Shown piece by piece: positions 4,338 to 29,417 of a stretch of DNA of 64,000 nt; the first letter of the stretch is position 1, and each line of letters begins with the position of its first letter. The DNA lies in assembly GCA_903823665.1 (NCBI GenBank), contig CAIJTR010000044.1, forward strand, positions 1 to 64,000, given 5' to 3'. The translations under genes were made by a program, and so were the position numbers. The notes beneath the pieces were generated by a model. It did not search any database and was not told where the DNA came from. It saw only the letters and a program-made list of their open reading frames with translations. Source of the DNA: an uncultured Rhodospirillales bacterium (GTDB lineage: Bacteria > Pseudomonadota > Alphaproteobacteria > Acetobacterales > Acetobacteraceae).

Positions 4338-4407
4338 CGCGTTCCTCGCCAGACCATGGACATGCCCATGATCTAAGCGAGCAAGCCGTTTCGGGCAAAG
4401 CCTAGTG

Positions 4408-5010: not shown

Positions 5011-5307
5011 GGCGGAATCCCCTCATTGTACCAAAAGATATGGGTCACACAGAGCGTGATTGCATCGGGCGTATGGCGGGGGGCGTTGTGTTCCGTGCAA
5101 CACAGCCCGCTGTGGCGGGATTATGTCGTGCGCCCTCTCTCGCCGCCAGCGTCGCGTCCCGGTTGGCAAGCCCGGCTGCGCGGGCTAGAACCCGCCCAAG
5201 GGTGCATCACAGACGTATGTGGCGGACACTCGATTTTACCACGGATGTCACGGGGTTTGTTCGGGTTGCTGCAGGATCGCAAATCCAATTTGGCGGAAGG
5301 CGAGGCC

Positions 5308-6285: not shown

Positions 6286-6339
6286 CGACGCGGCTCCAAT
6301 TTTGTTATCATCTGGTCCCCTTCCGAGGAGCCGACTGCC

Positions 6340-7467: not shown

Positions 7468-7481
7468 CGCCGCCCAAATTT

Positions 7482-7577
7482 CGTCATTGCGAGGCCCCGC
7501 TTGGGGCCGTGGCAATCCAGAGCATCACGGCGTGACCCCTGGATTGCCGCGGGGCCAAGTGGCCCCTCGCAATGACG
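7482..7577. repeat. Long imperfect inverted repeat (REP-like) upstream of hisS
   Basis: The two ends are complementary: CGTCATTGCGAGGCCCCGC on the left and GGCCCCTCGCAATGACG on the right. Inner blocks GCAATCCAG and CTGGATTGC also pair, so the whole 96 bases can form one long hairpin. The outer CGTCATTGCGAG word is shared with dispersed palindromic elements known from several alphaproteobacteria. Its right end lies eight bases before the hisS ribosome-binding site. Only one copy is present in this window. Confidence 0.75.
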
Positions 7578-7597
7578 GTGTGAACAAGGACGCCTCA

Positions 7598-8833
7598 TTG
7601 AACGACCTGCAACCCGTCCGCGGCACGCGCGATCTCATCGGTGATGATTTCCGCAGGCACGCCCACGTCATCGACACCGCCCGCCGGGTCGCCGCCACCT
7701 ACGGCTTCGACGAATGGGCCACCCCCATATTCGAAGACACCCGCGTCTTCTCCCGCACGCTGGGCGACACGTCGGACGTCGTCACCAAGGAAATGTACAG
7801 CTTCGAAGACCGAGGCGGCGACTCAATCACCCTCCGCCCAGAAGGCACCGCAGGCGTCTGCCGCGCCCTCGTCACCGGCGGCCTCACGCAATCCCTGCCG
7901 CAGAAAGTCTTCTACGCCGGCCCCATGTTCCGCTACGAGCGCCCACAAAAAGGCCGCTACCGCCAGTTTCACCAGATCGGCTGCGAACTCATTGGCCCGT
8001 CTGAGCCGCTCGCCGACGCCGAAGTCATCGCCTGCGGCTGGGACATTCTCGTCGCCCTCGGCATCTCCGGCGACACCGTCCTCGAACTCAACACGCTGGG
8101 TGACGCCGAAAGCAAACTCGCCTACCGCGCGGGCCTCATCGCCTACTTCACCGAGCACAAGGCCCAGCTTTCCGAGGAAAGCCTCTCCCGGCTGGAGCGC
8201 AACCCCATGCGCATCCTCGACAGCAAAGACGCCGGTGACAAAGCCATCGTCGCCCACGCCCCCGTCATCAAGCCCTTCCTCACCGAGCACGCCGCCAGCT
8301 TCTACGCCAAGCTGCAGGAGCATCTCGCGCGCATGGGCGTGCCCTACCGCGAAAACCCCCGCATCGTCCGCGGTCTCGACTATTACAGCCACACCGCCTT
8401 CGAATTCGTGACGGACGCCCTTGGAGCCCAAGGCACCGTCATGGGTGGTGGCCGCTATGACGGCCTCGTCGAAGAAATGGGCGGCCCGCCCACCCCCGCC
8501 GTCGGCTGGGCCGCAGGTATCGAGCGGCTGTCGATGCTGCTCGCCATCTTCCCCGAGACGGAATCACCCGTCACCGTCATCCCAACCGGAGCCGATGCTG
8601 AGCCCGTGGCCATCGACGCCGTGCAACTCCTCCGCCGCGCTGGCATCCGTGCCGAGATCGGCTATCGCGGCAACCTCAAGCGCCGCATGGAACGCGCCAA
8701 CAAGCAGAATGCCCGCGCCGCCATCATCATCGGCAGTGACGAAGCCGCCCGTGGCGTCGCACAAGTCAAGAACCTCGCCACCGGCGAGCAGCATGAGGTG
8801 GCACTCTCGGACCTCGCCACGCATCTGGCATGA
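7598..8833 (+). CDS. hisS: Histidyl-tRNA synthetase
   Basis: Class II aminoacyl-tRNA synthetase that charges tRNA-His; 411 residues with this start. Visible are the N-terminal [10 protein letters not shown], motif 2 region ([16 protein letters not shown]), the HisA block RGLDYY (residues 258-263), motif 3 MGGGRYDGL (from 282) and the C-terminal anticodon-binding domain. The start is a TTG at 7598 with AAGGA seven bases upstream. A GTG at 7580 is in frame but lacks a ribosome-binding site and lies against the inverted repeat. The gene end overlaps prfA by four bases. Confidence 0.95.
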
Positions 8834-9906
8834 GCGGCTCCGGTAAGGGGCTTGCCCTCAAACTCGACCGCCTGACCGACCGCGCCGCCGAACTCAACGC
8901 ACTCCTCGGCGAAGGCCAAATCACCGGCGATGCCTATGTCAAAGCCTCCCGCGAACTGAACGAGCTTGAGCCCATCGTAGCTCGCGTCGCCGAATTGCGC
9001 GCCGCCGAAAAGCAGGCCGCCGAGGCCGAAGCGATGTTCGACGACCCTGACATGCGCGACATGGCGGAAGAAGAACTACGCGAACTGAAAGACAAAATCC
9101 CAGCCCTCGAACGCGCCATCCGCATCGCGCTGCTGCCGAAGGACGAAGCCGACGACCGCTCCGGCATCCTCGAAATTCGCCCCGCCGCCGGGGGTGACGA
9201 AGCCGGCCTGTTCGCCGCCGAGCTGTTCCAGATGTACCAGAAATACGCGGCAACCCAGGGCTGGCGCTTTGAGGTGATGGATTTCGACGAAAGCGAACTC
9301 GGCGGCATCCGCAACGCCAGCGCCGAAATCACCGGCAAATCCGTCTTCGCCCGCCTCAAATACGAATCAGGCGTCCACCGCGTCCAGCGCGTTCCTGCCA
9401 CCGAAAGCCAGGGGCGCATCCACACCTCCACCGTCACCGTCGCCGTCCTGCCCGAGGCGGAGGAGGCGGACGTGCAAATTGACGAATCGCGTGACCTGCG
9501 AATCGACGTCTATCGCGCCCAGGGTGCGGGCGGCCAGCACGTGAACAAAACCGAATCAGCCGTGCGCGTCACCCATCTCCCCACCGGCCTCGCGGTGGCG
9601 ATGCAGGAGGAAAAGAGCCAGCACAAGAACAAGGCCAAGGCGATGAAGCTGCTCCGCGCCCGCCTGTATGAACTCCAACGCGCCGCCCTGCACGCCACCC
9701 GCTCGGCTGACCGCAAATCCCAGGTCGGCACCGGTGACCGCTCCGAACGCATCCGCACTTACAACTTCCCGCAAGGCCGCGTGAGCGACCACCGCATCAA
9801 CCTCACGCTGTATAAGATCGACAAGGTGATGGGCGGCGACATCGACGAGTTCATCGACACCCTCACCGCCGAAGACCAGGCCGCAAGGTTGGCCGCCGAG
9901 GAGTGA
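8830..9906 (+). CDS. prfA: Peptide chain release factor 1
   Basis: Recognises UAA and UAG stop codons and triggers peptide release on the ribosome. It has 358 residues with a coiled N-terminal domain. The GGQ catalytic motif is at residues 234-236 (GAGGQHVNK), and its Gln is the site methylated by PrmC. The stop-codon recognition region carries the PAT tripeptide ([12 protein letters not shown]), which marks RF1 rather than RF2. ATGA overlaps join it to hisS upstream and to prmC downstream, so the three genes are probably translationally coupled. Confidence 0.97.
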
Positions 9907-10754
9907 CCACCGGCGAACTCCTGCGCGCCGCCACCGCCCAACTCACCAAAGCCGGCATCGACTCCCCCCAACTCGAAGCCCGCCTCCTCCTCGCCCACGC
10001 CCTCGGTACCGACCGCAACACCCCCATCGACCGAGCACGCGAAATCGACCCCACCGCCTTCAACACCCTCCTGGCCCGCCGCCTCACTCACGAACCCCTC
10101 GCCTTCATCATCGGCACGCAAGGCTTCTGGACGCTCGACCTCGCCGTCTCCCCAGCCACCCTGATTCCCCGCGCCGACTCGGAGACATTGATTCAAGCCG
10201 CCCTCGAACACGCGAATCCAGCCTCGATTCTCGACCTCGGCACCGGCACTGGCTGCCTCCTGCTCGCAGCCCTGTGCGAATTCCCCGCAGCCTCCGGCAT
10301 CGGCATCGACCTATCCCCAGCCGCCGCAGCGCTCGCCGCCCGCAACGCACAAACCTGCAACCTCGCCACCCGCTCAGCCTTCCTGGCCGGCAATTGGAGC
10401 CACGCCATCAACGCCCGATTCGACCTCATCCTCTCCAACCCGCCCTATATCCCAGCCGCTGACATCCCCGCCCTCATGCCCGAAGTGGCGCGATTCGAGC
10501 CCGCCCGAGCACTCGATGGTGGCGAAGACGGCCTCACCGCCTATCGCGCACTGGCCAACATCCTCCCGCATCTGCTGACCGAAACCAGCCACGCCATTCT
10601 CGAAATCGGCCAGCACCAGGGGCCAGACATCACCGCCATCATGGCCGCACACGGGCTGCGCACCGTCACCATCAAACCCGATCTTGGCGGCATTCCGCGC
10701 GCGATGGTGCTGGTGCTCGAAAAAACATTTGGCAGGACAGCCGGTTCTCGCTAG
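9903..10754 (+). CDS. prmC: Release factor glutamine methyltransferase PrmC
   Basis: SAM-dependent methyltransferase that N5-methylates the GGQ glutamine of release factors. It has 283 residues: a helical N-terminal domain, the SAM motif [13 protein letters not shown], and the catalytic NPPY at residues 179-182 ([11 protein letters not shown]). The GTG start overlaps the prfA stop. Being directly downstream of prfA, its substrate, supports the call. The C-terminal ERAMVLV-type ending is replaced by [12 protein letters not shown]. Confidence 0.95.
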
Positions 10755-11005
10755 GTTCACATCGCCCGACGACGATGCAACATTGCGCATCGATCGGTGT
10801 TCCCGCTCTCATGGTAATCGTCTCGACATATTCATGACCAATGAAAGCGCGGACAGAGAGGGCAGCGGCCCAAAGACTGATTGTTGAACCAACTTGTCCC
10901 TGAAGCTGGCAGGGGCAACGGACCACACGGCCAAGTTCCGTGGTTGGTTCGTCAAGCGAACCGGACCAACCGATCCCGTCGCATCCAGAGACACAGGAAA
11001 GCGCT

Positions 11006-11020
11006 ATGGCACTCGCATGA
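11006..11020 (+). CDS. Four-codon mini-ORF (M-A-L-A) overlapping the DUF4167 start
   Basis: An AGGAAA at 10995-11000 is followed five bases later by ATG 11006, which encodes only Met-Ala-Leu-Ala before TGA. The TGA overlaps the ATG of the DUF4167 gene as ATGA. The only good ribosome-binding site therefore serves this mini-ORF rather than the main start. Whether it is translated is an inference; it could provide reinitiation-type coupling. Confidence 0.35.
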   Translation: MALA

Positions 11021-11541
11021 ATATGAAACGTATGCGCGGACGCAATCACCGCGGCGGCAATGGCAGTGGTGGCGGTGGTGGTGGCGGCGGTGGCGGTGGT
11101 CCGCAAATTCGCCCGCAAGGCGGCCAAACGCCGCTCAATCGCAACCATGTCTTTGACAGCTCCGGGCCAGATCTGCGCATTCGCGGCACCGCCCAGCAAT
11201 TGTTCGAGAAATATCTGCAGCTCGGCCGCGATGCCAGCAGCAGTGGTGACCGGGTAATGGCCGAGAGCTATTTCCAATACGCCGAACACTATTTCCGCAT
11301 TCTGAACGCCATGACGCAGGCCGCTCAGCAAGGCCAGCCAAACGGCCAGCAGCACCAGCAGCGTCCGCCCCGGCAGGAAAACAACGGCCCAGAAATCATG
11401 GGCAGCCATGAAGGCGAGAGCAACGATCCCGAGCAGGCCGAAGCGAGTGCCGCTCAGATCATTCACGCTCCTGGCCTTGGCGATCAGCCCAACGGCGAAG
11501 CCCGCGAAATCCCAATCGCAGCCGCTCCGCCCGAGGAATAA
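11017..11541 (+). CDS. DUF4167 domain-containing protein with polyglycine tract
   Basis: A 174-residue alphaproteobacterial protein with the DUF4167 core at about residues 45-100 (RIRGTAQQLFEKYLQLGRDA, then a second helix SYFQYAEHYFRILNAM). The N-terminus is basic (MKRMRGRNHR) and is followed by a glycine tract at residues 13-28. The C-terminal half is Gln/Pro/Asn-rich and probably disordered. The molecular function of the family is unknown; the basic and glycine-rich start suggests nucleic-acid contact, which is inference. ATG 11017 lacks its own strong ribosome-binding site; ATG 11023 is an alternative. Confidence 0.88.
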   Translation: MNMKRMRGRNHRGGNGSGGGGGGGGGGGPQIRPQGGQTPLNRNHVFDSSGPDLRIRGTAQQLFEKYLQLGRDASSSGDRVMAESYFQYAEHYFRILNAMTQAAQQGQPNGQQHQQRPPRQENNGPEIMGSHEGESNDPEQAEASAAQIIHAPGLGDQPNGEAREIPIAAAPPEE

Positions 11542-11566
11542 CCCGTTTGCGCGACGGGATGGCGGC

Positions 11567-12346
11567 CTAAACCGCCATCCCCAGCCGCTGAAACAAATCG
11601 ATCAGCACCAAATTCACGTTGAATTTGAACGCATCGCTGTCGCGCACCGCCTCGTACGCGCGCTCAACCGGCCAAAGTTCGAAGCTCTCCACCTCGCCAT
11701 CCGCCGCCACCGGCGTAAAATCCTCCGGCAGGTCGAGATCATAGCAATGCAAAATGTCCCGCCGTAGCCCCTCTGGCCGCATCATGGCGTAGGACACCTC
11801 TGCCCGCTTCACCGCCCGCGACGCCAGTGCCTCTGGAATAGACGCCTCCTCAGCACTCTCCTTGATCAGCGTCTCCCAGGCATCCATCCCCGCCGAAACC
11901 CCGCCGGCGGCGAGATGATCAAGCTTGCCAGGGTCCAGCGCCTTGTTCGCTGCCCGCCGCGCCACCCAAAGGTGCAGCCCATCCGCCCGCCGCACCAACC
12001 CGTTCAAATGCATCCCCACCGCCTGAATGCCGAACGCCGGCAGCGCGCCCCGGTCAATCGTCGATAGCACCGGCCCATCCGGCACCGCCCGCACATCAAA
12101 CAACTCACCCCGATGGCGAAACCGGCCGCGTGACGAAAGCGCAAACGCAATCCCAGGCAGCGCCTGCGGGTCCAGCAAATTCACAGTCTCATCCAGCACT
12201 GAAACCGATGAAAACCCGCGCAGATCGTCCACAATCCCGGCTGTCAGCCACCCGGCAAGCTGGCCCGAGATATGCAATGCCAACCGGCCCGATGGCGGCA
12301 CGAAAGTGTGGCAGGCGTCGAAATGGCGCTGAAATTCCGGGGTCAT
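11567..12346 (-). CDS. DUF4743/Nudix hydrolase family protein
   Basis: A 259-residue protein. The N-terminal DUF4743-like part covers residues 1-110, and a Nudix domain follows with the box at about 147-170 (GGVSAGMDAWETLIKESAEE). The box departs slightly from consensus, with Lys for Arg and Asp for the first Glu, but retains the EE pair. Relatives with this layout hydrolyse nucleoside or thiamine diphosphate derivatives; the substrate here is not deducible. It is convergent with the DUF4167 gene, 25 bases apart, and divergent from the ABC exporter gene. Confidence 0.85.
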   Translation of the reverse strand: MTPEFQRHFDACHTFVPPSGRLALHISGQLAGWLTAGIVDDLRGFSSVSVLDETVNLLDPQALPGIAFALSSRGRFRHRGELFDVRAVPDGPVLSTIDRGALPAFGIQAVGMHLNGLVRRADGLHLWVARRAANKALDPGKLDHLAAGGVSAGMDAWETLIKESAEEASIPEALASRAVKRAEVSYAMMRPEGLRRDILHCYDLDLPEDFTPVAADGEVESFELWPVERAYEAVRDSDAFKFNVNLVLIDLFQRLGMAV

Positions 12347-12428
12347 CCTCCCGCGTTAGCCCACCCCAGCCCGAATGAATAGCCGGGTCGCGGCCTCATC
12401 GCTTTGCAAACCCGCCTTGGAGTGCCAC

Positions 12429-14258
12429 ATGCGAGGAATGAAACCAGCCGCCTCCACCGAACCACACCCGCTCGACCGTCCGGCCTGGCGCACAATCATC
12501 TCCCTGCTGCCTTATCTGTGGCCGAAAGGTGAAACCTCCGCGCGCATCCGAGTGGTGCTGGCCACCGCCTGCCTCGTGGCCGCAAAAATCGCCACCGTCA
12601 TCGTCCCACAGGTCTACAGCCGCGCCGTCGATGCCCTCGCCCCCGGCCAGGCGATGCTTGTCATCCCCATGGGGCTAATCGGTGCCTACGGCCTCCTGCG
12701 CATCGCCAGCTCTGGTTTTGCCGAGCTACGCGACGCCATTTTCGCCGCCGTCCAACAGAGCGTGATGCGCAAAGCGGGCATGCAGAGCTTCGAGCATATG
12801 CACCGCCTCTCGCTCCGCTTCCATCTCGACCGTCAAACCGGCGGCCTCTCGCGCAGCATCGAGCGTGGCACCACCGGCATCGAAACCGTGCTCCGCCTCG
12901 CCGTGTTCAACATCGTGCCCACCTTGTTCGAGGTGCTGCTCGTCACCGCCATTTTGTGGGAGATGTTCGACTGGCGTTTCGCCGCCGTCACCTTCTCCGC
13001 CGTGTTCGCCTATCTCGCCTTCACCACGCTGTTCGCCAACTGGCGCGTCAAATTCCGCCGCACCATGAACGAGACCGACAGCGACGCCCGCACCAAGGCC
13101 GTCGACAGCCTGCTGAACTACGAAACCGTCAAATATTTCGGCAATGAACGCCATGAGGCCGACCGCTACGACCGGGCGCTCAAACGCTATGAGAAGGCCG
13201 CGGTGAAAAGCCAGGTCACGCTCAACGTGCTCAACATCGGCCAGGCCACCATCATCGCCGTCGGCCTCGCCCTCGTCATGCTGATGGCAGCGCAGGGCGT
13301 GAAAGACGGCACCATGTCTGTCGGCAAGTTCGTGCTGGTCAACACCTATCTCATGCAGCTCTACCAGCCGCTGAACTTCATGGGCTTCGTCTATATCCAG
13401 ATCAAACAGGGCCTCGTGGATATGGAGCAGATGTTCCGCCTCCTCGGCACCGACGCCGAAATCAAAGACCGCACAAACGCCAAGCCGCTGCCCGCAGCGC
13501 GTCAGGCATCCGAGCTGCGGTTTGATGATGTCGTGTTCGGCTACCGCCCAGATCGAACCATCCTGCACGGCATCAGTTTCGTGGTCCCGCCCGGCCGCTC
13601 CCTCGCCGTCGTCGGCCCCACCGGTGCCGGCAAATCCACCATCAGCCGCCTGCTGTTCCGCTTCTACGATGTGAACTCCGGTGACATCCGCATCGACGGC
13701 ACTGACATCCGCGACTTCACCCAAGACAGCCTGCGGGCCGCCATCGGCGTGGTGCCGCAAGACACCGTGCTGTTCAACGACACCATACGTTACAACATCG
13801 CCTATGGCCGCCCGGGCGCCTCAGAAGACGAGATCATCGAAGCCGCCAAACTCGCCCAGGTGCATGATTTCGTGCTCCGCCTGCCCGACGGCTATGACAC
13901 GAAGGTCGGCGAGCGCGGCCTCAAACTCTCCGGCGGCGAAAAGCAGCGTGTCGCCATCGCCCGTACCATCCTCAAAAACCCGCGCATCCTCATCCTCGAC
14001 GAAGCCACCAGCGCGCTTGACACGCAAACCGAGCAGGATATCCAAACTGCCCTGCGCAGCCTCTCGCGTGACCGCACCACGCTGACCATCGCCCACCGCC
14101 TCTCCACGGTGGTGGACGCCGACCAGATCATCGTCCTCGACCAAGGTGTGGTCGTCGAACGCGGCACGCACCAGGCTTTGCTCGCACAAGATGGCGTCTA
14201 CGCCCGCATGTGGGCGCTGCAAGCCGAACAACAGGCGCTCCCGGAAGCCGCCGAATAA
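12429..14258 (+). CDS. Atm1-type ABC exporter (fused membrane and ATPase domains)
   Basis: A 609-residue half-transporter that works as a homodimer in the inner membrane. Six transmembrane helices lie within residues 30-330. The ATPase carries Walker A GPTGAGKST (396-404), signature LSGGEKQR and Walker B ILILDEATSALD. The membrane domain has Atm1-like features: YETVKYFGNE, and LNFMGFVYIQIKQGLVDMEQ at the end of the last helices. Bacterial Atm1 proteins export glutathione-bound metals or related thiol compounds. The start ATG 12429 has GGAG six bases upstream. The small gene following at 14275 may be cotranscribed. Confidence 0.9.
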   Translation: MRGMKPAASTEPHPLDRPAWRTIISLLPYLWPKGETSARIRVVLATACLVAAKIATVIVPQVYSRAVDALAPGQAMLVIPMGLIGAYGLLRIASSGFAELRDAIFAAVQQSVMRKAGMQSFEHMHRLSLRFHLDRQTGGLSRSIERGTTGIETVLRLAVFNIVPTLFEVLLVTAILWEMFDWRFAAVTFSAVFAYLAFTTLFANWRVKFRRTMNETDSDARTKAVDSLLNYETVKYFGNERHEADRYDRALKRYEKAAVKSQVTLNVLNIGQATIIAVGLALVMLMAAQGVKDGTMSVGKFVLVNTYLMQLYQPLNFMGFVYIQIKQGLVDMEQMFRLLGTDAEIKDRTNAKPLPAARQASELRFDDVVFGYRPDRTILHGISFVVPPGRSLAVVGPTGAGKSTISRLLFRFYDVNSGDIRIDGTDIRDFTQDSLRAAIGVVPQDTVLFNDTIRYNIAYGRPGASEDEIIEAAKLAQVHDFVLRLPDGYDTKVGERGLKLSGGEKQRVAIARTILKNPRILILDEATSALDTQTEQDIQTALRSLSRDRTTLTIAHRLSTVVDADQIIVLDQGVVVERGTHQALLAQDGVYARMWALQAEQQALPEAAE

Positions 14259-15179: not shown

Positions 15180-15629
15180 TCAATACCGCTTATACGGCAG
15201 GAACTTCCCTGACATCGTCATCTTCACCCGGTCGCCCTTCTGGTCCGGCTGGCGCTCCAACGTCATGTCGAAGTCGATGGCACTCATAATCCCGTCGCCG
15301 AATTCCTCGTGGATCATCTCCTTCCACGTCGTGCCATACACCTGGATCAATTCGTAAAAGCGATAGATCAGCGGGTCAGTTGGAACCGCAGTCGGCAGCG
15401 AGCCACGATAAGGGGCCTCTGCCAGCACCTCCGCTTCCTCAACTGACAAACCGAACAGCGCCGCCGCTTTGGCCGCCGTCTCCGGCGTCATCGACATCTG
15501 GCCCAGGCAGGCTGCGGTCGTCCAAACCGGCGCGTGGCCGAGTTTTGCCGCGATCTCAGCCCAGGTCCAGCCATTCTGCTTCTTGATCTTGAGCAGCTTT
15601 TTGCCGAGCGCGGTTTTCTCATCGTTCAT
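15180..15629 (-). CDS. cynS: Cyanate hydratase (cyanase)
   Basis: Catalyses bicarbonate-dependent breakdown of cyanate to ammonia and carbon dioxide; active as a decamer. It has 149 residues against about 156 in E. coli. The N-terminal helical domain is followed by the catalytic domain with Arg90, Glu93 (PLIYRFYELIQVYG) and Ser116 (GDGIMSAIDFDM), equivalent to Arg96, Glu99 and Ser122 of E. coli. ATG 15629 is the natural start; the open frame extends upstream without support. No cynT (carbonic anhydrase), cynX or cynR is adjacent. The gene end abuts the broken vapC remnant. Confidence 0.95.
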   Translation of the reverse strand: MNDEKTALGKKLLKIKKQNGWTWAEIAAKLGHAPVWTTAACLGQMSMTPETAAKAAALFGLSVEEAEVLAEAPYRGSLPTAVPTDPLIYRFYELIQVYGTTWKEMIHEEFGDGIMSAIDFDMTLERQPDQKGDRVKMTMSGKFLPYKRY

Positions 15630-15726
15630 GTAGGCACCATCTCCATTGCTTCTGCCGACGCGGCAGCCGCCATCGCAATGCAATCACCGGGCCAATGTGG
15701 TCCTTTGTTCTGGATCCGCGCAAAAG

Positions 15727-17420: not shown

Positions 17421-20400
17421 CTACGCGCGCACCCTGAAGTCAGACGCCTTCAGCACCCGGTAAAACGCCAGATCATCCACCCCAGCCACCGCCTGCGGCA
17501 GACGATCTTCTGCCGCACCGTTCTGGTTCAGCTGCTCCAAATGCCCATTCTGCGCCACCGTCGGGAACGGGATGTGCGTCATAATGGCGTCATCGAACAA
17601 CGCCGCCACCGCGTTCTCGCCAGTGTCGAACCCACCGCCGACATACACCGTCTTGGTGTCCACATTGTTCTGGAAGTCATTGGTGTAGCCGTTATAGCGC
17701 GGGCTGGACGGATGGTTGAGCCCATGCCCCTGCAACGCCAACTCCTCCAGCAACGGATTGCCCTGCAGCGTCCGTTCCAGTGCCAGATACGACTTGGTGG
17801 TGAAAGCCGCATTCATCGAAATCCCCAGCACGTGCTGGTTGATCTGAGCCGCCATATTGATCGCATCGAACTCACGCTGAGCGTCCTCGCGGTCGCGTGC
17901 CTGCACATCGGCCGAGAGCTTGGACAAGCCGGTGTTCTCGAAGATGATCTCGGCATTGCCCTCCTGCCGCTGCTCGAACGTCAGCGTACTGGCGCCACCT
18001 GCCTGCATGATCTTCATATAGCCCTGCCATTCCGCTTTCAGATTGGCAGGCGATCCCAGCGAGCCATTGCTGGTCAGGTCATACGCATGAAACAGCCCGG
18101 TGGCATCGGCCACCCAATGATGCGGGCTATCAATCCCGAAGCCATCGGCCAGCGTGATGGTGGAGAAGTTGTTCGTCACGTTATAGCCGTAGAACGTCTT
18201 GATATCCCCGGCGGGCGGAGCCGCGTGCTCAACCTTGTCGTAGGCCGCATCGTCCGGCGAGACATATTTGTTGTTCGCCGTTGATGTGGTCTGGCTGAAA
18301 TCGGCCTTGGTGTAGAGCCGGTCATACATCGAGTCATTCGCCGCCAACACGTCCGTCTCCAGCCGGTCCTCCGGATTGCCGTTCTGGTTCAGCTGCTCCA
18401 GATGCCCGTTCTGCGGCACCACCGGGAACGGCAAATGCGTGATGATGCTGTCGTCGGCCAAGTTCCGCAGCGCGTTCTGGTTGTTATCAAGCCCGCCGCC
18501 GATGAACAGCGTGGTCTTGTCCACGTTGTTCTGGAAGTCGTTGGTATAGCCGTTATAGCGCGGGTTCGAGGGGCTGTTCAGCCCGTGGCCCTGAATGGCC
18601 AGTTCCTCCAGCTGGGCGTTGTCCTGCAACACCTGGCCCACACCGAGATAGCTGATCTGGTCGAACGGTTTGGAAGGATCATAGCCCGGCGTGATTTCTG
18701 CATAGATATTCTGAGCGGCCGAGATGGCGTCGAACTCGCGCTGCATGTCCTCCATATCGCGCAGCTGCACCGTCGCAGACAGCGTGTGCAAAGCGGTGTT
18801 CTGGAACAGCACCAGCGCATTGGCCTCGCTGTGCTGGAAAACGTTGCCACCACCGGCGGCCACAATGTCGAAGGAAGCCTGCCACTCCGCCATCAAATCA
18901 TTGTATTCGTTGCCGGTGGCGTTGACGATCGAGCTGTCCACAATGTGAAACAGCCCGTCTGTCCCGGCCAGCCAGGTGTGCGGCAGGCTCGCCGTCACCG
19001 CAGCCGCCTGCGTGGCCGACGGGTCGATGCCGGTGGTCACGGTGCGGAACTCGTTGGCAATTTGATCGCCAGTCAGGGTGGTTTCAAACCCGGCCACCGT
19101 CACCGGCTTCGAATTGTAGAAATCCGTGCTGTGCAGCGTCAGCTGGAACGCACTCTCATTCAGCCCGGCAACGGCCGTGCCGATCCGCTGTTCTGAATTG
19201 CCGTTCTGGTTGAGCTGCTCCAGATGGCCGTTCTGCGCCACGGTCGGGAACGGCACGTGCGTCAGCGCCACGTCATCGAAGAAATCAGCAATCGCCTTCT
19301 GCCCGTCATCCGGCCCGCCGCCCACGTAAAGCGTGGTGTTGTCGACGTTGTTCTGGAAGTCGTTGGTGTAGCCGGCATAGCGGCTGCTCGAAGGGTTGTT
19401 CAGCCCATGGCCCTGAATCGCCAGTTCCTTCAACGAGGCGTTGGCCTGCAGCGTGCGCTCCAGCGCCAGATAGCTTGATTGTGTGAACTGTGCCGACGCT
19501 GAAATCCCCAGCGTCTCGGCATTGATCTTCATCGCAGCGCCAATCGCGTCGAACTCGCGTTGTGCGTCCAGCCGGTCGATGTTCTGCTGGGCCGCGCTGA
19601 GCTTTGACAGGCCGGTGTTCTCAAACACCGCCTCGGCATTGCCCTCCATCCGCTGCTCGGCGGTCAGCGACGCACCGTTACCGGCCAGCATCGTGGCGTA
19701 ATCGGCCTGCCACTCGGCAGCGAGGTTGATGGTCTGGCCCTTGCTGTCCACCGCCTCGAACAGGCCCTGGCTGTTTGCCACCCAATTATGGTCCAACTGT
19801 ACCGTCGCAGTCCCTGGCACGGCTACCGAGGAAAGCGTGCTTGAGATCACATCGCCAAAGAACGTGACAATCTGGCCAGCACCAGCCGTCTTAATGTCGG
19901 CTGCATACATCTTCGCATCCGGCGAGACGTATTTGTCATTCACAGCCGATGTGTTCTGGCTGAAATCAGCGCTGGTATAAAGCCGGTCATACATCGCGTC
20001 GTCCGCCGCCAGCACGTCCGCTTTCAGTTGATCTTCCGGATTGCCGTTCTGGTTCAGCTGCTCCAGATGTCCGTTCTGCGCCACGGTTGGGAAGGTGATG
20101 TGAGTCAGAATGCTGTCATCAGCGAGGTTGGTCAGCGCGTTCTGATTGTTGTCGAGTCCACCGCCGATGAACACCGTTTTGGTGTCAACATTGTTCTGAA
20201 AGTCGTTGGTGTAGCCGTCATAGCGCGCGGCCGAGGGGGAGTTCAGGCCATGCCCCTGGATCGCCAACTCCAGCAGCTGCGCGTTGTCCTGCAAGGCCGT
20301 TTCCACGCCCAGATAGCTCGCCTGATCGAACGGCTTGCCCGGGTCATATCCAGGCACCTGAGTCTGATAGACCTTTTGCGCCGCTGCAATCGCATCAAAC

Positions 20401-20759
20401 TCGCGCTGCATGTCCTCCATGTCGCGGGTCTGCGTGGCGGCAGAAAGCGTGTGCAGCGTGGTGTTCTGAAACAGCACCTCTGCATTCGCTTCACTGTGCT
20501 GCAGTGACGTCATGGGGCCGCCAGCCAGCGCCGCCTTCAGCGAGTTCATCCATTCAGTGGCCAGATCGGTTAGCTGGCCGGTGGTGGTATCGTAGGGATG
20601 AAACAACCCATCCGCCCCGGCCTTCCAAACATGGGCGAGATCGATCGTCGTGCCGTTCGGGGCAACCACGTTGCTGAAGCTGCTCGGGATCGATGCTCCG
20701 AAGAATGTTGTCTGGGTTGGGATCGTTGCTGCAAGCAAATTGTTGCTGGTGTCGGTCAC
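17421..20759 (-). CDS. Unrecognised 1112-aa protein built of four tandem ~280-aa repeats
   Basis: I cannot assign a family. The repeats occupy about residues 18-266, 298-547, 558-821 and 854-1108. Each contains an aromatic FFG/FYG start, W-x-A-x-x-x-GLF, EANAEVLFQN or EGNAEAVFEN, QREFDAI, LAIQGHGLN, GYTNDFQNNVD, (I/V)GGG and QNGHLEQLNQNG. Repeats 1 and 3 share one subtype (HSEAN...LFQNT...LHTLSA...YLGV); repeats 2 and 4 share another (EGNAE...FENTGLSKLSA...YLALERTLQ). There is no signal peptide, membrane segment or cysteine, and it is rich in Asn, Gln and Asp, which fits a secreted or surface protein. No secretion gene is adjacent. Codon use resembles the neighbours. Confidence 0.9.
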   Translation of the reverse strand: MTDTSNNLLAATIPTQTTFFGASIPSSFSNVVAPNGTTIDLAHVWKAGADGLFHPYDTTTGQLTDLATEWMNSLKAALAGGPMTSLQHSEANAEVLFQNTTLHTLSAATQTRDMEDMQREFDAIAAAQKVYQTQVPGYDPGKPFDQASYLGVETALQDNAQLLELAIQGHGLNSPSAARYDGYTNDFQNNVDTKTVFIGGGLDNNQNALTNLADDSILTHITFPTVAQNGHLEQLNQNGNPEDQLKADVLAADDAMYDRLYTSADFSQNTSAVNDKYVSPDAKMYAADIKTAGAGQIVTFFGDVISSTLSSVAVPGTATVQLDHNWVANSQGLFEAVDSKGQTINLAAEWQADYATMLAGNGASLTAEQRMEGNAEAVFENTGLSKLSAAQQNIDRLDAQREFDAIGAAMKINAETLGISASAQFTQSSYLALERTLQANASLKELAIQGHGLNNPSSSRYAGYTNDFQNNVDNTTLYVGGGPDDGQKAIADFFDDVALTHVPFPTVAQNGHLEQLNQNGNSEQRIGTAVAGLNESAFQLTLHSTDFYNSKPVTVAGFETTLTGDQIANEFRTVTTGIDPSATQAAAVTASLPHTWLAGTDGLFHIVDSSIVNATGNEYNDLMAEWQASFDIVAAGGGNVFQHSEANALVLFQNTALHTLSATVQLRDMEDMQREFDAISAAQNIYAEITPGYDPSKPFDQISYLGVGQVLQDNAQLEELAIQGHGLNSPSNPRYNGYTNDFQNNVDKTTLFIGGGLDNNQNALRNLADDSIITHLPFPVVPQNGHLEQLNQNGNPEDRLETDVLAANDSMYDRLYTKADFSQTTSTANNKYVSPDDAAYDKVEHAAPPAGDIKTFYGYNVTNNFSTITLADGFGIDSPHHWVADATGLFHAYDLTSNGSLGSPANLKAEWQGYMKIMQAGGASTLTFEQRQEGNAEIIFENTGLSKLSADVQARDREDAQREFDAINMAAQINQHVLGISMNAAFTTKSYLALERTLQGNPLLEELALQGHGLNHPSSPRYNGYTNDFQNNVDTKTVYVGGGFDTGENAVAALFDDAIMTHIPFPTVAQNGHLEQLNQNGAAEDRLPQAVAGVDDLAFYRVLKASDFRVRA
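17436..20708 (-). repeat. Four coding repeats in A-B-A-B order
   Basis: Repeat units in gene order lie at about 20708-19962 (A), 19868-19119 (B), 19088-18297 (A) and 18200-17436 (B). The LAIQGHGLN block recurs at intervals of 281, 274 and 287 codons. The alternation implies that an A-B pair was duplicated as a block after A and B had diverged. Unit boundaries were judged by eye from shared words. Confidence 0.85.
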
Positions 20760-20818
20760 GGCGATTTCCCCTGATTGCGTGCCAGGGGTTTATGGGGCAG
20801 CAAATGTTTCTAAAAATG

Positions 20819-20854
20819 AAAATCGCGTGATGAAGCATTTCATCACGCGATTTT
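20819..20854 (-). terminator. Perfect 16-bp hairpin between the hydrolase and four-repeat genes
   Basis: AAAATCGCGTGATGAA, loop GCAT, then TTCATCACGCGATTTT: a perfect 16-base-pair stem with A/T ends. Read leftwards it ends in TTTTCATTTTTA, as expected of an intrinsic terminator for the hydrolase gene ending at 20933. Its A/T-flanked symmetry could also work on the other strand. It lies 60 bases before the start of the four-repeat gene, in a notably A+T-rich gap. Confidence 0.75.
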
Positions 20855-20932
20855 CTTGTGGCAGACAAAATATTTATTTTAATAAAACGTTATACGACGT
20901 CATTATTTGTAAATTATTGATACTAAGTTAAT

Positions 20933-23121: not shown

Positions 23122-23832
23122 TCAGTCGTCCGACTGCAGCACCTTTGAAACAACACCAGCCAGCACCGCACCCACAATCGGAGCCACGATGAACAGCCAG
23201 AGCTGGCCGATGTAATCACCACCAGCGAACAGAGCAGGCCCAATCGAGCGCGCCGGGTTTACAGACGTGTTGGTCACTGGAATGGTGATCAGATGGATCA
23301 GGGTCAGGCCCAAGCCAATCGCGATCGGCGCAAACCCACCCGGAGCGCGCGGCGAAGTGCTGCCCAGAATGATCAGCAGGAAAAAGAACGTTGCCAGCAC
23401 TTCGGTGATCAAGCAGGCGATCATCGAGTACTTGCCCGGGCTCAGATCACCATAGCCGTTCGAAGCAAAGCCACCCACGGTGAATCCTGCCTTGCCGCTT
23501 GCGATCACATAAAGCACGCCGGCCGCTACAATCGCGCCCAGCACCTGAGCAATCCAGTAAGGAACGATATCAGCGGTCTTGAAGCGGCCCGAAGCCCAGA
23601 GGCCAGCGGTCACGGCCGGGTTGAAATGACCGCCCGAGATGTGGCCAACGGTGTAGGCCATGGTCAGTACGGTCAGACCGAAGGCGAACGCCACGCCCAC
23701 GAAACCAATGCCGAGGAAGGGGCCACCCACGGCCGCCGGAAATGCAGCGGCCAGCACGGCGCTGCCGCAGCCACCAAATGTCAGCCAGAAAGTACCGAGA
23801 AATTCGGCGCCAGCGCGTTTTGCGATAGACAT
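23122..23832 (-). CDS. aqpZ: Aquaporin Z-type water channel
   Basis: Six-helix MIP channel of 236 residues in the inner membrane. Both NPA motifs are present (HFNPAVTAG and [10 protein letters not shown]). The residues around them and the short loops fit a water-selective aquaporin rather than a glycerol facilitator; the Arg after the second NPA is conserved. ATG 23832 is preceded by GGAGG. The C-terminus ends in KVLQSDD. Confidence 0.95.
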
Positions 23833-23926
23833 GCTGTTACCTCCGTTGAAGAAACGATCAGCGGTGCGGTCTATCAAACATGATTATGGCGATCAAACGA
23901 CGAAATGATGATGTTCTAAATGAGGA

Positions 23927-25447
23927 TCACATCGTTGCACCCAGCACCCAGGGTGCGAACTCTGCCCCACCAAAGTCAAATTCCTCAGACTTTGTGCGCT
24001 CTCCCGAGGCGGTGCGGAGAAGCTGGTCGAAGATCCGTTTGCCGCATTCCTGGACGGTTTCCGCACCATCCAGGACGGTCCCGCAATTAATATCCATGTC
24101 ATCTTCCATGCGGGTGTACATGGCGGTGTTGGTGGCAAGCTTGATCGAAGGCGAGGGCTTGCAGCCAAACACACTGCCGCGTCCGGTGGTGAAGCACACA
24201 AGATTCGCACCGCCTGCCACCTGACCGGTCGCCGCCACCGGGTCGTAGCCCGGCGTGTCCATAAACACGAAGCCCTTCTTGGTCACCGCCTCGGCATATC
24301 CCACCACATCCACAAGGTTCGTGCTGCCAGCCTTCGCCATCGCTCCCAGCGACTTTTCCAATATGGTCGTAAGCCCGCCCGCCTTGTTGCCGGGCGACGG
24401 ATTGCTGTCCATCTCAGCCCCTTGGCTCTTGGTGTAATTCTCCCACCAGCGCATCAGCCCCACCAGCTTCTCGCCCACCTCGGGCGAAACCGCACGACGC
24501 GTCAGCAGATGCTCCGCCCCGTAGGTCTCAGGCGTCTCCGACAAAATCACCGTGCCGCCATTGCGGACCAGCAAATCACTGGCAACGCCGAGTGCCGGGT
24601 TCGCAGAAACACCCGAATACCCATCCGAGCCACCGCATTGCAGCGCCAGCGTGATCTCACTCGCCGGAACCTGCACGCGCGTTACCTTGTTCGCGTCCTC
24701 CAGCGCCTCACGCACAAAGTCGATCCCGGCCATCACCGTCTTGCGGCTGCCGCCCATCTCCTGAATGTCCATCGCCCGCAGCCGTCCGGCCAGCCGCTGC
24801 TCGGTCATCAGCGAGCCGATCTGGTTCACCTCGCAGCCCAGGCCCAACATGATCACCGAGTGGAAATTCACGTGCCGCGCAAACCCGCCGAGCGTGCGGC
24901 GCAGCAGTGCCAACGGCTCATGCTGCGTCATGCCACAGCCGGTCTTGTGGGTGAGTGCGACCACACCATCCACATTCGGATAATCCGCCAGTGGATCATG
25001 CCCGGTGATCGGATTGCGCTTGAACGCGTCAGCCACCAGGCTCGCCACGTTCGCCGAGCAGTTCACACTGGTCAGAATGCCGATGTAATTCCGCGTCGCC
25101 ACCCGCCCATCCGGCCTGCGAATGCCCATGAACGTCGCGGGCGCATCCACATAAGCCGTCGGCGTCATTGCCTCGCTATAGGCATAGTCCTTGGCGAAAT
25201 CGCCCATGCCACAATTCTGCACATGCACGTGCTCACCCGGCGTGATCGGCTGGGTGGCAAAGCCGATGATCTGGCCATAGCGAATGATCGCATCCCCCGG
25301 CTGGAAGGCACGAATAGCGGCCTTGTGCCCAGCCGGAATGCGCATGGTGGCCACACAATTCTCACCAAGCGACGTGCCTGGAAGCAGTGTTGCGCGTGCG
25401 ATCACCACCCCGTCATCGGGGTGCAGGCGGATGACGGGGGTGCTCAT
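23927..25447 (-). CDS. UxaA/GarD-family sugar-acid dehydratase (altronate or galactarate dehydratase)
   Basis: A 506-residue single-chain enzyme. An N-terminal SAF-type domain lies at about residues 10-85, followed by the large dehydratase domain with GCGMTQHEPLALLRRTLGG, LGLGCEVNQIG, CGGSDGYSGVSANPALG and TGRGSVFGCKPSPSIKLATN. The family dehydrates altronate, galactarate or related acids. The gene lies 12 bases downstream of an HpcH/HpaI aldolase gene. This pairing fits galactarate breakdown (dehydration to 5-keto-4-deoxy-glucarate, then aldol cleavage) better than altronate, but the choice is inference. ATG 25447 has AAGGAC upstream. Confidence 0.87.
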   Translation of the reverse strand: MSTPVIRLHPDDGVVIARATLLPGTSLGENCVATMRIPAGHKAAIRAFQPGDAIIRYGQIIGFATQPITPGEHVHVQNCGMGDFAKDYAYSEAMTPTAYVDAPATFMGIRRPDGRVATRNYIGILTSVNCSANVASLVADAFKRNPITGHDPLADYPNVDGVVALTHKTGCGMTQHEPLALLRRTLGGFARHVNFHSVIMLGLGCEVNQIGSLMTEQRLAGRLRAMDIQEMGGSRKTVMAGIDFVREALEDANKVTRVQVPASEITLALQCGGSDGYSGVSANPALGVASDLLVRNGGTVILSETPETYGAEHLLTRRAVSPEVGEKLVGLMRWWENYTKSQGAEMDSNPSPGNKAGGLTTILEKSLGAMAKAGSTNLVDVVGYAEAVTKKGFVFMDTPGYDPVAATGQVAGGANLVCFTTGRGSVFGCKPSPSIKLATNTAMYTRMEDDMDINCGTVLDGAETVQECGKRIFDQLLRTASGERTKSEEFDFGGAEFAPWVLGATM

Positions 25448-25459
25448 CGTATCGTGTCC

Positions 25460-26236
25460 TTAAACGTGACCGGCCGCGTTCTCATGAACATGCTTCACAG
25501 CCGCTTTCGCCGCCATCTGCATCAGGCCGCTATCGTTGGCGATGGTCACCATCTTGAAGCCCATCTTGATGGCGCGAGCAGCATAGGCAGCCGAGCCGCA
25601 ATGAATGCCGGCAAACAGGCCGCGCTTGGCGGTGGCATCCAGAATCTTCTGATAAATCGCCAAAATCTCCGGCTCCTCACGGTCCAGCACCGGGATCAGG
25701 CCATACGAGAAGCCGAGGTCAGACGGTCCGATATACACGGCCGAAATGCCGGGAACGTCGAGAATAGCGTCGAGGTTCTCCACCGCCTGCTTGGTCTCGA
25801 TCATCGGCATGATGATGATCTCATCATTGGCGGTCTTCTGATATCCGGTCGCCTCGCCATACATCGCAGCGCGGATCGGCCCGTTGGAGCGTGCGCCATG
25901 CGGCGGATACTTGGCATAGGACACCAGCGCCTCCGCCTCAGCCTTGCTGTTGATCATCGGGCAGATCACGCCATAAGCACCGGCATCCAGAACCTTGCCC
26001 ACAATGCCCGGCTCGTTCCACGGCACGCGAACCATCGGCAGCACCGGATGCGCCTGCATCGCCTGGAAGCACTGCACCATCGACAGGTAATCCTGCACGC
26101 CGTGCTGCATATCAACAGTCACGGAATCAAACCCGCATTGTGCCATGCACTCAGCGGAGAAGCCGGACGGTATGGCCAGCCAGCCATTGACGGTGGCTTT
26201 GCCTGCGGCCCAGGCGTTCTTGATCTTGTTCTGCAT
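25460..26236 (-). CDS. HpcH/HpaI-family aldolase
   Basis: A 258-residue class II (metal-dependent) pyruvate aldolase of the HpcH/HpaI/GarL type. It shows NGWLAIPSGFSAECMAQCGFDSVTVDMQHG, the metal-site Glu in MPMIETKQAV, and YIGPSDLGFSYG. Related enzymes cleave 5-keto-4-deoxy-glucarate or 4-hydroxy-2-oxoheptanedioate, releasing pyruvate. It is the first gene of a two-gene unit with the dehydratase. ATG 26236 with GGGGAGA six bases upstream is preferred over the preceding in-frame GTG. Confidence 0.88.
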   Translation of the reverse strand: MQNKIKNAWAAGKATVNGWLAIPSGFSAECMAQCGFDSVTVDMQHGVQDYLSMVQCFQAMQAHPVLPMVRVPWNEPGIVGKVLDAGAYGVICPMINSKAEAEALVSYAKYPPHGARSNGPIRAAMYGEATGYQKTANDEIIIMPMIETKQAVENLDAILDVPGISAVYIGPSDLGFSYGLIPVLDREEPEILAIYQKILDATAKRGLFAGIHCGSAAYAARAIKMGFKMVTIANDSGLMQMAAKAAVKHVHENAAGHV

Positions 26237-26315
26237 CACATATCTCCCCTTGCTTTGTTATCGCTAACGCTAGGCCGGGGTTCGGCATGAGGCAAGACAC
26301 TGCAAGCCTTCTCGA

Positions 26316-27428
26316 TCACCCCGCCTGCGTGTGTCCGCACAGATCAGCCTTGCGCAACTCGCCGAGCAGACCAGGGCCCACCGCATCAAATCCCTGCCCC
26401 GCGCAGACGGGACCCGCCAACTTGAACGCCTCTGGCGTGCGCCCCTCCTGATGCAGCAGCAGCGCGTAGACGGCGCGGATCGACGCATCGAGAGTGGGGT
26501 ACGCGATGGCCACCATGCCCTTGTCGAGCTTGATCCCGGCGCGCAAATCCTCTTCGGCACCCTGGTAGTCCCCCTTGGCCGTCTTCACTTGCGCAGACAT
26601 CATGCGCAGCAGCGGATCATTTGGATACTTCGCCGAGAGCTGCCGCGCCTTGGCCATCATATCTTTCGTCGTGTGTGGGATTTGCGCGACAGGCAACAAC
26701 TGCCCAGCCAACGGCGCATATTGCGGATAATTCTGCACCACGGCGTAGCCGGTACTTGCAAAGCCGATCACGCCTGCAACAGCAAGTGCCGCCGCTTCCA
26801 GCCGGAACGGCGGCAAGGTCTCAGAATCTCGCCAGCCGGCCAGCAGCAGAATGCCCACCACCAGGCCAAATGCCGCCCCGCCGACATGCGCGCCGTAATC
26901 CACATGGCCACCGCCACCACTGAACAGCGGGTAGGTGTCGAGCACCAGCAGCACCAACGTCACCCATTGGCTGCGCATCTTCGCCCGGCTGTTTGGTATC
27001 CGAAACGTCACCAGGAAGCGCGCTGCCATCATCGCCATGATCCCGCCCGAGGCCCCCACGCCCACACTGCCCGGCGTCAGACACACCGACAGCACCGACC
27101 CCGCCAAGCCGCCGGCCGCGAAAATGCAAAAGAACCACGCCCGTCCAACCTGGCGCTCCAGGCTGTAGCCGAGCAGCATGAACGCAATGCCGTTAGAGAC
27201 CAGATGCTCCCGGCTGCCGTGCAAAAACGGGGCGGCCAGCATCCGGTAGAGCTCACCATCACGCACCAACGACCAGTTCAGCCCACCAAACGACAACAAG
27301 CTGATCACGCCCGGCGTCTCACCGGGTCCCGCAGGCTGCAATCCGTATTGCAGCTCAAGTGCAAACACGGTGCTAAAAATCGCCATCAGCAAAAATGTCA
27401 GCCACGGAACGACATATCGACGCGTCAC
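26316..27428 (-). CDS. Rhomboid-family intramembrane serine protease with C-terminal helical extension
   Basis: A 370-residue inner-membrane protease. The catalytic Ser127 is in GVGASGGIMAMMA and the catalytic His181 in HVDYGAHVGGAAFG; the loop-1 region carries LHGSREHLVSNGIAF with the conserved His and Asn. The membrane part ends near residue 240. The remainder is soluble and resembles a TPR pair (MMAKARQLSAKYPNDPLLRM, GDYQGAEEDLRAGIKL). The frame is open far upstream, but a GTG at 27428 with AAAGG nearby fits the first membrane helix. It is divergent from the quiC1-like gene. Confidence 0.88.
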   Translation of the reverse strand: MTRRYVVPWLTFLLMAIFSTVFALELQYGLQPAGPGETPGVISLLSFGGLNWSLVRDGELYRMLAAPFLHGSREHLVSNGIAFMLLGYSLERQVGRAWFFCIFAAGGLAGSVLSVCLTPGSVGVGASGGIMAMMAARFLVTFRIPNSRAKMRSQWVTLVLLVLDTYPLFSGGGGHVDYGAHVGGAAFGLVVGILLLAGWRDSETLPPFRLEAAALAVAGVIGFASTGYAVVQNYPQYAPLAGQLLPVAQIPHTTKDMMAKARQLSAKYPNDPLLRMMSAQVKTAKGDYQGAEEDLRAGIKLDKGMVAIAYPTLDASIRAVYALLLHQEGRTPEAFKLAGPVCAGQGFDAVGPGLLGELRKADLCGHTQAG

Positions 27429-27518
27429 GCGATACACCTTTCGTCTTGAATACCTGAATGGTGTTAGACACGAATTTCCATCAAGATAACCGTCATGTTT
27501 TGTCGATTGGATAACCGA

Positions 27519-29417
27519 ATGATCGCAGCCCACCGCCATGCTTTGACGGCATCTCCGCTGTCGATCGCCACCGTCTCGCTCAGCGGTTCGCTGCAAGAGC
27601 GTCTGGAGGCTGCGGCCAATATTGGCTTCGACGGTGTGGAAATGTTCGAGAACGACCTGCTCACCTTCGACGGCACCCCCGCCGAGGTGCGCCGCATGGC
27701 GGAAGACCTTGGCCTCGTCATCACCATCTTCCAGCCGTTCCGCGATTTCGAGGCGATGCCGGAAGCCCAGCGCCAGCGCAACATGGACCGTGCAGAGCGC
27801 AAGTTTGACGTCATGCAGGCCCTCGGCACCGACCTCATCCTCGTCTGCAGCGCCGTCTCCCCGCAGGCCCTGGGTGACGCCTCCCGCGCCGCTGCCGATC
27901 TGCGTGAAATGGCCGAACGTGCCGCCAAACGTGGCCTTCGCGTCGGCTACGAGGCCCTTGCCTGGGGCAAGCACGTCAATCGCTGGCAACAGGCATGGGA
28001 CATCGTCACCGCTGCCGATCACCCCAATCTCGGCCTTATCGTGGACAGCTTCCACACCCTCTGCCTCGATGACGACCCGTCCGGCATCGCCTACGTCCCC
28101 GCCGAAAAACTGTTCTTCGTCCAACTCGCGGACGCCCCGCGCCTGTCGATGGACGTCCTCTCCTGGAGCCGCCACTTCCGCAACTTCCCAGGCCAGGGCC
28201 AGCTCGATGTCGGCCGCTTCCTCCGCCCCGTCCTCGCCACCGGCTATAAGGGCCCGCTCTCGCTCGAAATTTTCAACGACGATTTCCGCGCCACCCCCGC
28301 CCGCCTGACCGCACGCGACGGCCTGCGCTCCCTGGTTCTGGTGCAGGACGAAGTGGGAGCCCTCCAACTGCCCAAGCCGCCGGTGTTTGACGGCGTGGAA
28401 TTCATCGAATTTGCCGTCGATGACGCAGCACGCAATGAACTTGCTGGCTTCCTCACCTCACTCGGCTTCCGCGAAGCCGGCCAGCACCGCTCCAAGGCCG
28501 TCTCCCTCTACCGCCAGGGCCGCATCAATCTGGTGCTGAATGCCGAGCAGGATTCCGCCGCGTCCGAGCACTTCCTCCTGCACGGCCCCTCCGTCTGCGC
28601 CATCGCCCTTCGCGTTGATGATGCCAAACGCGCCCTCACCCGCGCCCGCGCGTTGCTCTGCCCAGACTGGCAGGAACGCATCGGGGCAGGGGAGCGCCAA
28701 ATCCCCGCCGTCCGCGCGCCAGACGGCACACTCATCTACCTCGTCGAGCCATCCCCCACCGGCCGCAGCATCTTCGAGGACGACTTCATCCTCACCGACG
28801 CAGGCCAGGACCAAGACCACCTCGCCGAAACCGACCACATCGCCCAAGCGCTGCCCACCGGAAGGCTCGACAGCTACGTGCTGTTCTACCACGCCGTGTT
28901 CGGCTTCGAGGCGCAGGCCACGTTCGAACTGCCCGACCCCTACGGCCTCATCCGCAGCCGCGCGATGGTCTCAGCCGATGGCAGCGTGCGCCTGCCGCTC
29001 AACATCTCCGAAAGCCGAGAGACGGCAACCGGGCGCTTCGTCTCTGCCTTCGCAGGGGCCGGCGTGCAGCACATCGCCTTCTCCACCCACGATATCTTTG
29101 CAGCCGCGTTGGCCTTGGAAGGGAAGGGGCTGCAGATGCTCCCGATCCCACCGAATTACTACGACGACCTCACCGCACGCCACGGCCTCGAAGATGCGTT
29201 CCTCGAACAGCTCCAGGCGCACAACTTGCTCTACGACCGGGACGACCAGGGCGACTTCATCCACGGCTTCACCGAAACCTTCGATGACCGCTTTTTCTTC
29301 GAAATCGTCCAACGTCGCGGCTACCAGCAGTTCGGCGCGCCCAACGCCACCGTGCGAATGGCCGTTCAGGCCCAACGGCGCGAGGCGCTACGTATCGGCC
29401 ATCGTCTCGTGCTTTGA
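27519..29417 (+). CDS. quiC1: QuiC1-like 3-dehydroshikimate dehydratase fused to an HPPD-like domain
   Basis: A fusion protein of about 632 residues. The N-terminal third is a xylose-isomerase-like barrel (SIATVSLSGSLQERLEAAAN to about residue 265). Its likely metal ligands are in VGYEALAWG, LIVDSFHTL, FFVQLADAP and LSLEIFNDDF. The C-terminal two-thirds is a VOC domain like 4-hydroxyphenylpyruvate dioxygenase (VEFIEFAVDD, VQHIAFSTHDI, FFFEIVQRRGYQQFGAPN). In Pseudomonas such fusions make protocatechuate from 3-dehydroshikimate during quinate/shikimate use. ATG 27519 or 27495 may be the start. The 3' end overlaps the convergent tetR by 30 bases. Confidence 0.88.
   Translation: MIAAHRHALTASPLSIATVSLSGSLQERLEAAANIGFDGVEMFENDLLTFDGTPAEVRRMAEDLGLVITIFQPFRDFEAMPEAQRQRNMDRAERKFDVMQALGTDLILVCSAVSPQALGDASRAAADLREMAERAAKRGLRVGYEALAWGKHVNRWQQAWDIVTAADHPNLGLIVDSFHTLCLDDDPSGIAYVPAEKLFFVQLADAPRLSMDVLSWSRHFRNFPGQGQLDVGRFLRPVLATGYKGPLSLEIFNDDFRATPARLTARDGLRSLVLVQDEVGALQLPKPPVFDGVEFIEFAVDDAARNELAGFLTSLGFREAGQHRSKAVSLYRQGRINLVLNAEQDSAASEHFLLHGPSVCAIALRVDDAKRALTRARALLCPDWQERIGAGERQIPAVRAPDGTLIYLVEPSPTGRSIFEDDFILTDAGQDQDHLAETDHIAQALPTGRLDSYVLFYHAVFGFEAQATFELPDPYGLIRSRAMVSADGSVRLPLNISESRETATGRFVSAFAGAGVQHIAFSTHDIFAAALALEGKGLQMLPIPPNYYDDLTARHGLEDAFLEQLQAHNLLYDRDDQGDFIHGFTETFDDRFFFEIVQRRGYQQFGAPNATVRMAVQAQRREALRIGHRLVL

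Follow-up and report, generated by a model that had tools for sequence, protein, structure and literature searches.

A tandem array of four copies of an undescribed domain with a candidate polar site, encoded in an Acetobacteraceae genome

The stretch of DNA analyzed here ("the window," 64,000 nucleotides from an uncultured Rhodospirillales bacterium of the family Acetobacteraceae) carries a gene for a repeat protein at positions 17421 to 20759 of the minus strand. The gene starts with a GTG codon at 20759, ends with a stop codon at 17421 to 17423 and encodes 1112 amino acids. A preliminary description of this DNA gave these coordinates without a strand. The interval reads properly on the minus strand only, and there the 1112-residue reading frame that it proposed is real. 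The gene has a GC3 of 0.78 and is present in a single copy in its own genome, as judged by a genome search.

An EamA transporter gene is convergent with the repeat gene and abuts it at 17420/17421, and an Abhydrolase_10 gene lies upstream. The gap that separates the latter from the repeat gene contains promoter-like hexamers and, at 20818 to 20855 on the minus strand, a 17-pair hairpin with a T-rich tail. This hairpin was found by pattern matching, under which the count of terminator-like sites is not above that in shuffled sequences, and it has no match in Rfam. Its terminator-like form suggests that the repeat gene may be transcribed separately. Elsewhere in the window, a cyanate hydratase (cynS) gene is found close to the repeat gene (15180 to 15683), and an MsbA-like ABC exporter is encoded ~3 kb from it (12375 to 14258). 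Upstream, at 23122 to 26239, Aquaporin Z is followed by galactarate dehydratase-like and 2-dehydro-3-deoxyglucarate aldolase-like genes, and this region is likely a sugar-acid catabolic cluster. A 683-amino-acid rhomboid-domain protein encoded at 26316 to 28367 is weakly similar to rhombosortase (TIGR03902, below cut-off).

No neighbor family recurs consistently across the loci of relatives. Flanks are conserved only between loci from one genus. At three loci an ABC transporter reappears, at varying distance. No clean empty insertion site was seen: within the same genus, orthologues of the Abhydrolase_10 gene (70 to 76%) reside in other contexts, with no other flank gene of the window beside them. 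The repeat gene behaves as a solitary accessory gene.

The protein is divided into four units of 260 to 294 amino acids, all encoded on the minus strand. Unit 1 (type A, 19872 to 20714) and unit 2 (type B, 19086 to 19871) are supported by the unit alignment, a tree and a structural model. Unit 3 (type A, 18204 to 19085) is 67% identical to unit 1, and unit 4 (type B, 17424 to 18203) was also modeled alone. Units 2 and 4 share 58% identity, and units 1 and 2 share 49%. In a tree of 87 units from the window protein and its relatives, unit 1 is sister to unit 3 (SH-aLRT 100) and unit 2 is sister to unit 4 (SH-aLRT 92), which supports the earlier proposal that the A-B-A-B order arose by duplication of an A-B pair as a block. 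The conserved sequence blocks on which that proposal drew are present in all four units. Internal units of the window protein and its relatives mostly end in DFS. A short basic tail (RVRA, KKA, RKV, KRWW, KRG) closes the last unit of four relatives (L027, L028, L037 and L040) and of the window protein. Most likely, the protein consists of four intact tandem copies of a self-folding, undescribed domain of ~260 residues.

The composition of the protein is unusual for the window. It contains no cysteine, against 11 expected from the rate in other window genes, and its pI is 4.4. A high content of Asn, Gln and Asp had been reported, and Asn and Gln together indeed make up 14.7% of the residues, versus 6.1 ± 1.5% for 34 other open reading frames of the window. 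The proteobacterial forms likewise lack cysteine, are low in Lys and Arg, and have pI values of 4.1 to 4.7. No N-terminal signal is visible in the window protein, as had been noted, or in the other proteobacterial forms. Between orthologous pairs elsewhere, dN/dS is ~0.1 to 0.2, and thus the repeat protein is under purifying selection.

Searches with the window protein and with 32 units gave nothing above the curated cut-offs of Pfam or NCBIfam. The best matches beneath the cut-offs are noise: PcrB at an E value of 9e-4 over 33 residues for the whole protein, and PF22256 at 0.0055 for the units. Neither phmmer (best E value 0.82) nor a profile hmmsearch (best E value 0.24) matched a sequence in the PDB, and PHROGs and PADLOC gave only short, weak PHROG matches and no phage or anti-phage defense family. 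The repeat protein also has no match in phage, plasmid or IMG/VR records. The statement that no domain could be recognized therefore holds for Pfam, NCBIfam, PHROGs and PDB sequences, and the domain family is undescribed when set against curated families and solved structures.

An AlphaFold2 model of unit 4, made with an alignment of 32 units, predicts an alpha+beta domain (pLDDT 96.4, pTM 0.93) in which beta-rich residues 1 to 54 are followed by a helical core and then by a C-terminal alpha+beta part. A full-length model (25 alignment rows) has the identical order of elements in all four units, which look equivalent. Its linkers are of low confidence, and its pTM of 0.54 fits beads on a string and rigid pairs alike. 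That each unit is a complete fold, as had been supposed, agrees with the shared secondary structure in this model and with a one-unit homologue, L046, whose existence shows that the unit is self-contained. When the unit model was compared with the PDB by Foldseek, the best E value was 0.93 and TM-scores were below 0.2; comparison with viral models gave no significant match. VIA-align against the unit model reached a best Z of 4.1, on the helical part, and a fold search with the full-length model returned no significant match. Judged from the model, the unit is likely, although not proven, to be a new fold.

Relatives are rare. They occur in 14 of 397 genomes of the host family, and in the host genus four of eight genomes carry a repeat gene, with 4, 2, 6 and 6 units. 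In a sample of 289 genomes of the class, only the window's own genome was positive. No true relative apart from the query genome was present in three further samples, drawn from the planctomycete phylum (~300 genomes), the actinobacterial class (~300) and the Roseiarcus order (~400). The last of these gave one weak profile match (E value 6.6e-4 over 36 residues), which was judged to be due to chance; the matching open reading frame presumably encodes the N-terminus of a PHA synthase. A scan of 84,980 species, with one genome each, found 20 loci, all of them in metagenome-assembled genomes (MAGs); it relied on one peptide pattern and is not exhaustive. The MAGs are labeled as Acetobacteraceae, Rhodospirillales or Rhodopila, Roseiarcus, Sphingomonadales, Schlesneria or Planctomycetales, and an actinobacterium. 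The distribution is patchy, and the sequences are divergent even inside one genus. The MAG names of many relatives (Umea, Kiruna, Alinen, AM-lipid) appear to resemble those of a stratified-lake metagenome project (PMC8121793).

The number of units in intact multi-unit proteins is even throughout. Two units are found in L033, L034, L036 and L040, four in the window protein, L027 and L028, and six in 11 proteins, among which L038 is counted. The single one-unit protein, L046, carries an actinobacterial label. Because the even counts derive from roughly six lineages, they are suggestive of a pair as the basic element of the array, and do not prove it. In the 87-unit tree, units at the same position of six-unit proteins mostly cluster across genera, indicating that the six-unit layout is old and stable. 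The four-unit layouts of the window protein (ABAB) and of L027 and L028 have different unit relationships and appear to have separate origins. The Roseiarcus-labeled locus L038 has 12 units at 4128 to 13031 in an open frame of 3170 amino acids. Units 7 to 12 repeat units 1 to 6 with 100% DNA identity across ~4 kb, as a result of a very recent duplication or of an error in assembly. Two loci contain damaged copies. At L045 (6900 to 9700), a decayed copy has an extra insert in unit 1 and in-frame stops, and one unit begins as a unit 3 and finishes as a unit 6; this join suggests a deletion through recombination between units. A two-unit copy at the Planctomycetales-labeled locus L043 (7791 to 9456) has an in-frame stop and a frameshift, owing to decay or sequence error.

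Alignment of the 87 units, with 44 high-scoring units contrasted with 16 low-scoring ones, separated two groups of conserved residues. A core is kept nearly everywhere (H28, W30, E58, W59, Q78, E81, N83, R105, D107, Q109, R110, D113, E154, Q158, Y170 and G172). A polar set is missing from the low-scoring units (H160, N163, T174, Q178, T185, D204, H210, Q224, N226, Q227, N228, E232 and D255). D176, D182 and D205 were joined to the latter as partly retained neighbors, to give 16 residues. In unit 4 of the window protein, the stretch with these candidate residues (unit residues 160 to 255, defined by their joint retention or loss across units) corresponds to 17439 to 17726 on the minus strand. 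The polar set is nearly all-or-none: 54 of the 87 units keep 14 to 16 of its residues, and 33 keep 12 or fewer. Every unit retains 13 to 16 of the 16 core residues, except unit 4 of L032, which has 10 and an intact polar set.

Loss of the polar set follows the architecture of the arrays. The set is complete (16/16) in each of the four units of the window protein, and in proteins with one, two or four units it is lacking only from unit 4 of L028, whose sister, unit 4 of L027, is intact. Among six-unit proteins, all 11 first units have the set, and none of the 22 fifth and sixth units does. Because the residues were first chosen by contrasting high and low scores, the set is biased. A held-out test, in which the set was derived again from four proteins and the short forms and then applied to eight other proteins, lessens this bias and does not remove it. 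In these eight proteins, retention was 70 to 100% in units 1, 2 and 4, 50 to 90% in unit 3, and 10 to 50% in units 5 and 6, with core retention mostly at 0.9 or more. A tree built without the polar-set columns requires at least seven changes of site state. The lost positions are confined to the C-terminal half of the unit, and this half may just be less constrained. The concerted loss of the polar set while the core is kept suggests a site, together with "dead" units that retain the fold, rather than a purely structural repeat. From the sequence pattern we infer that the polar residues form one functional pocket, presumably a binding or catalytic site that is dispensable in some copies.

The best indication of cellular location comes from the one-unit relative. 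L046, in the actinobacterial MAG, has an apparent Sec signal (recognized by eye) and an Ala/Pro linker to two He_PIG domains (E value 1.6e-32); its contig is only 4.6 kb, and the bin label may be wrong. The signal and the He_PIG domains make an extracellular role likely, and the repeat protein itself likely acts outside the cell. The part of the preliminary description that placed the protein outside the cell or at its surface is thus favored, whereas the case for an S-layer protein with a purely structural role is weaker, because the polar set is kept or lost in concert. The N-termini of the planctomycete proteins L033, L036 and L043 have an E-x-L-E-x-R-like motif that resembles the LEPR-XLL-like extracellular tag and has no Pfam match. 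This pattern is ~1.5- to 2.5-fold above a reversed control in the three planctomycete genomes; three other genomes show no such excess.

We assign a probability of roughly one half to the reading that the protein is a multi-site extracellular protein, binding or catalytic, built from the undescribed domain. Each copy would carry a polar site comprising H160 and H210, the acidic residues D204, D205, E232 and D255, and a cluster of Asn, Gln and Thr residues in the GHGLN, YTNDFQ and LNQNG segments. This site would bind, and possibly cleave, an external ligand, most likely at or outside the cell surface, and repetition of the unit would provide several sites per chain. In the longer relatives, the site would be kept in unit 1, and units 5 and 6 would have turned into fold-only units, probably for spacing, assembly or anchoring. 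One guess, from the polar, Asn/Gln-rich character of the site, is that the ligand may be saccharide-like. A more far-reaching version is offered tentatively: the fold would be new, the domain would define a new extracellular class of catalytic or binding domain, the pair would be the functional element of arrays with 2, 4 or 6 units, and the terminal pair would regularly have been made a site-less scaffold.

Several properties could also be those of a structural or adhesive repeat at the cell surface (S-layer, matrix or adhesin), whose units would be blocks without a ligand pocket in arrays tuned in length by recombination. The cysteine-free, acidic, Asn/Gln-rich composition, the tandem arrays of 2, 4 or 6 units, the shortening of L045 by recombination, and the patchy distribution with divergence within one genus, as for surface proteins, would all fit. 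However, a pure building block is not expected to split into units that lose a site in concert and units that keep it on the same scaffold, and no LPXTG, SLH, RTX or beta-barrel anchor in the profile libraries matches the window protein. We consider this account rather unlikely. Almost no weight is given to a misassembled repeat or a spurious open reading frame. The exact 6+6 duplication of L038 could be such an assembly error, but the window units differ from each other by 33 to 51% in sequence, which refutes this reading for the window gene; moreover, orthologues are under purifying selection, and relatives are present in independent assemblies.

Two further explanations concern the route out of the cell. 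If the actinobacterial and planctomycete proteins owed their extracellular architecture to a later re-use of the domain, the Acetobacteraceae forms might be cytosolic, or at least not exported, in keeping with the lack of a visible signal peptide and with the fact that no secretion genes adjoin the repeat gene in the window or at the relatives' loci. Against this unlikely reading are the complete avoidance of cysteine and the strongly skewed composition, which are typical of exported proteins, and the one-unit form that looks exported. Type I export had been suggested at the outset, and would be compatible with the favored multi-site extracellular reading if an uncleaved C-terminal signal lay inside the last unit and the secretion system were unlinked. 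The composition fits, the MsbA-like exporter is nearby, and the genome encodes an HlyD-family type I adaptor on another contig (G000:C47). However, 29 of 30 genomes contain such an adaptor irrespective of the repeat gene, and none was found in one carrier genome (G011, a MAG that is 90% complete). Pfam and NCBIfam profiles detect no RTX nonapeptide repeats in the window protein. In proteobacterial forms, nothing but a short and often basic tail follows the last unit, which leaves no room in the window protein for a separate C-terminal secretion signal. With no type I genes beside the repeat gene in the window or in its relatives, the suggestion is not supported, and we regard it as improbable.

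The domain is compact and confidently modeled, with no relative detected among curated families or solved structures. A catalytic site would make it a new family of enzymes from lake bacteria, and a binding site would make it a new type of modular binding domain. Along six-unit arrays the site is lost in an ordered way, a clean case of sub-functionalization within one protein. The site-less units that share a chain with intact ones, and the loss in unit 4 of L028, are natural "mutants" that point to candidate residues.

Among known systems, extracellular proteins with He_PIG/Ig-like domains (PF05345) are linked to the family through L046, in which a unit precedes two He_PIG domains. The unit itself differs in being an alpha+beta domain without a He_PIG match, and Ig-like domains are absent from the window protein. 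RTX and other repeat proteins exported by type I systems, and alphaproteobacterial S-layer proteins of the RsaA type, are cysteine-free, acidic, rich in Asn and Asp, and without an N-terminal signal. The repeat protein shares these traits, but it lacks RTX repeats, a C-terminal extension and an adjacent exporter operon, and its units keep a conserved polar site. Multidomain proteins that mix active and pseudo-active repeats are a general arrangement, which the family resembles in having the full residue set in some copies and the fold alone in others, in an ordered pattern. In the present case, no sequence or fold relation to any enzyme family was found. Finally, novel families derived from metagenomes, with no Pfam or PDB match, form a general class. 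The domain is similarly rare, found in uncultured lineages and without a match to a described family, but here the alignment of units yields a confident predicted fold and a testable candidate site.
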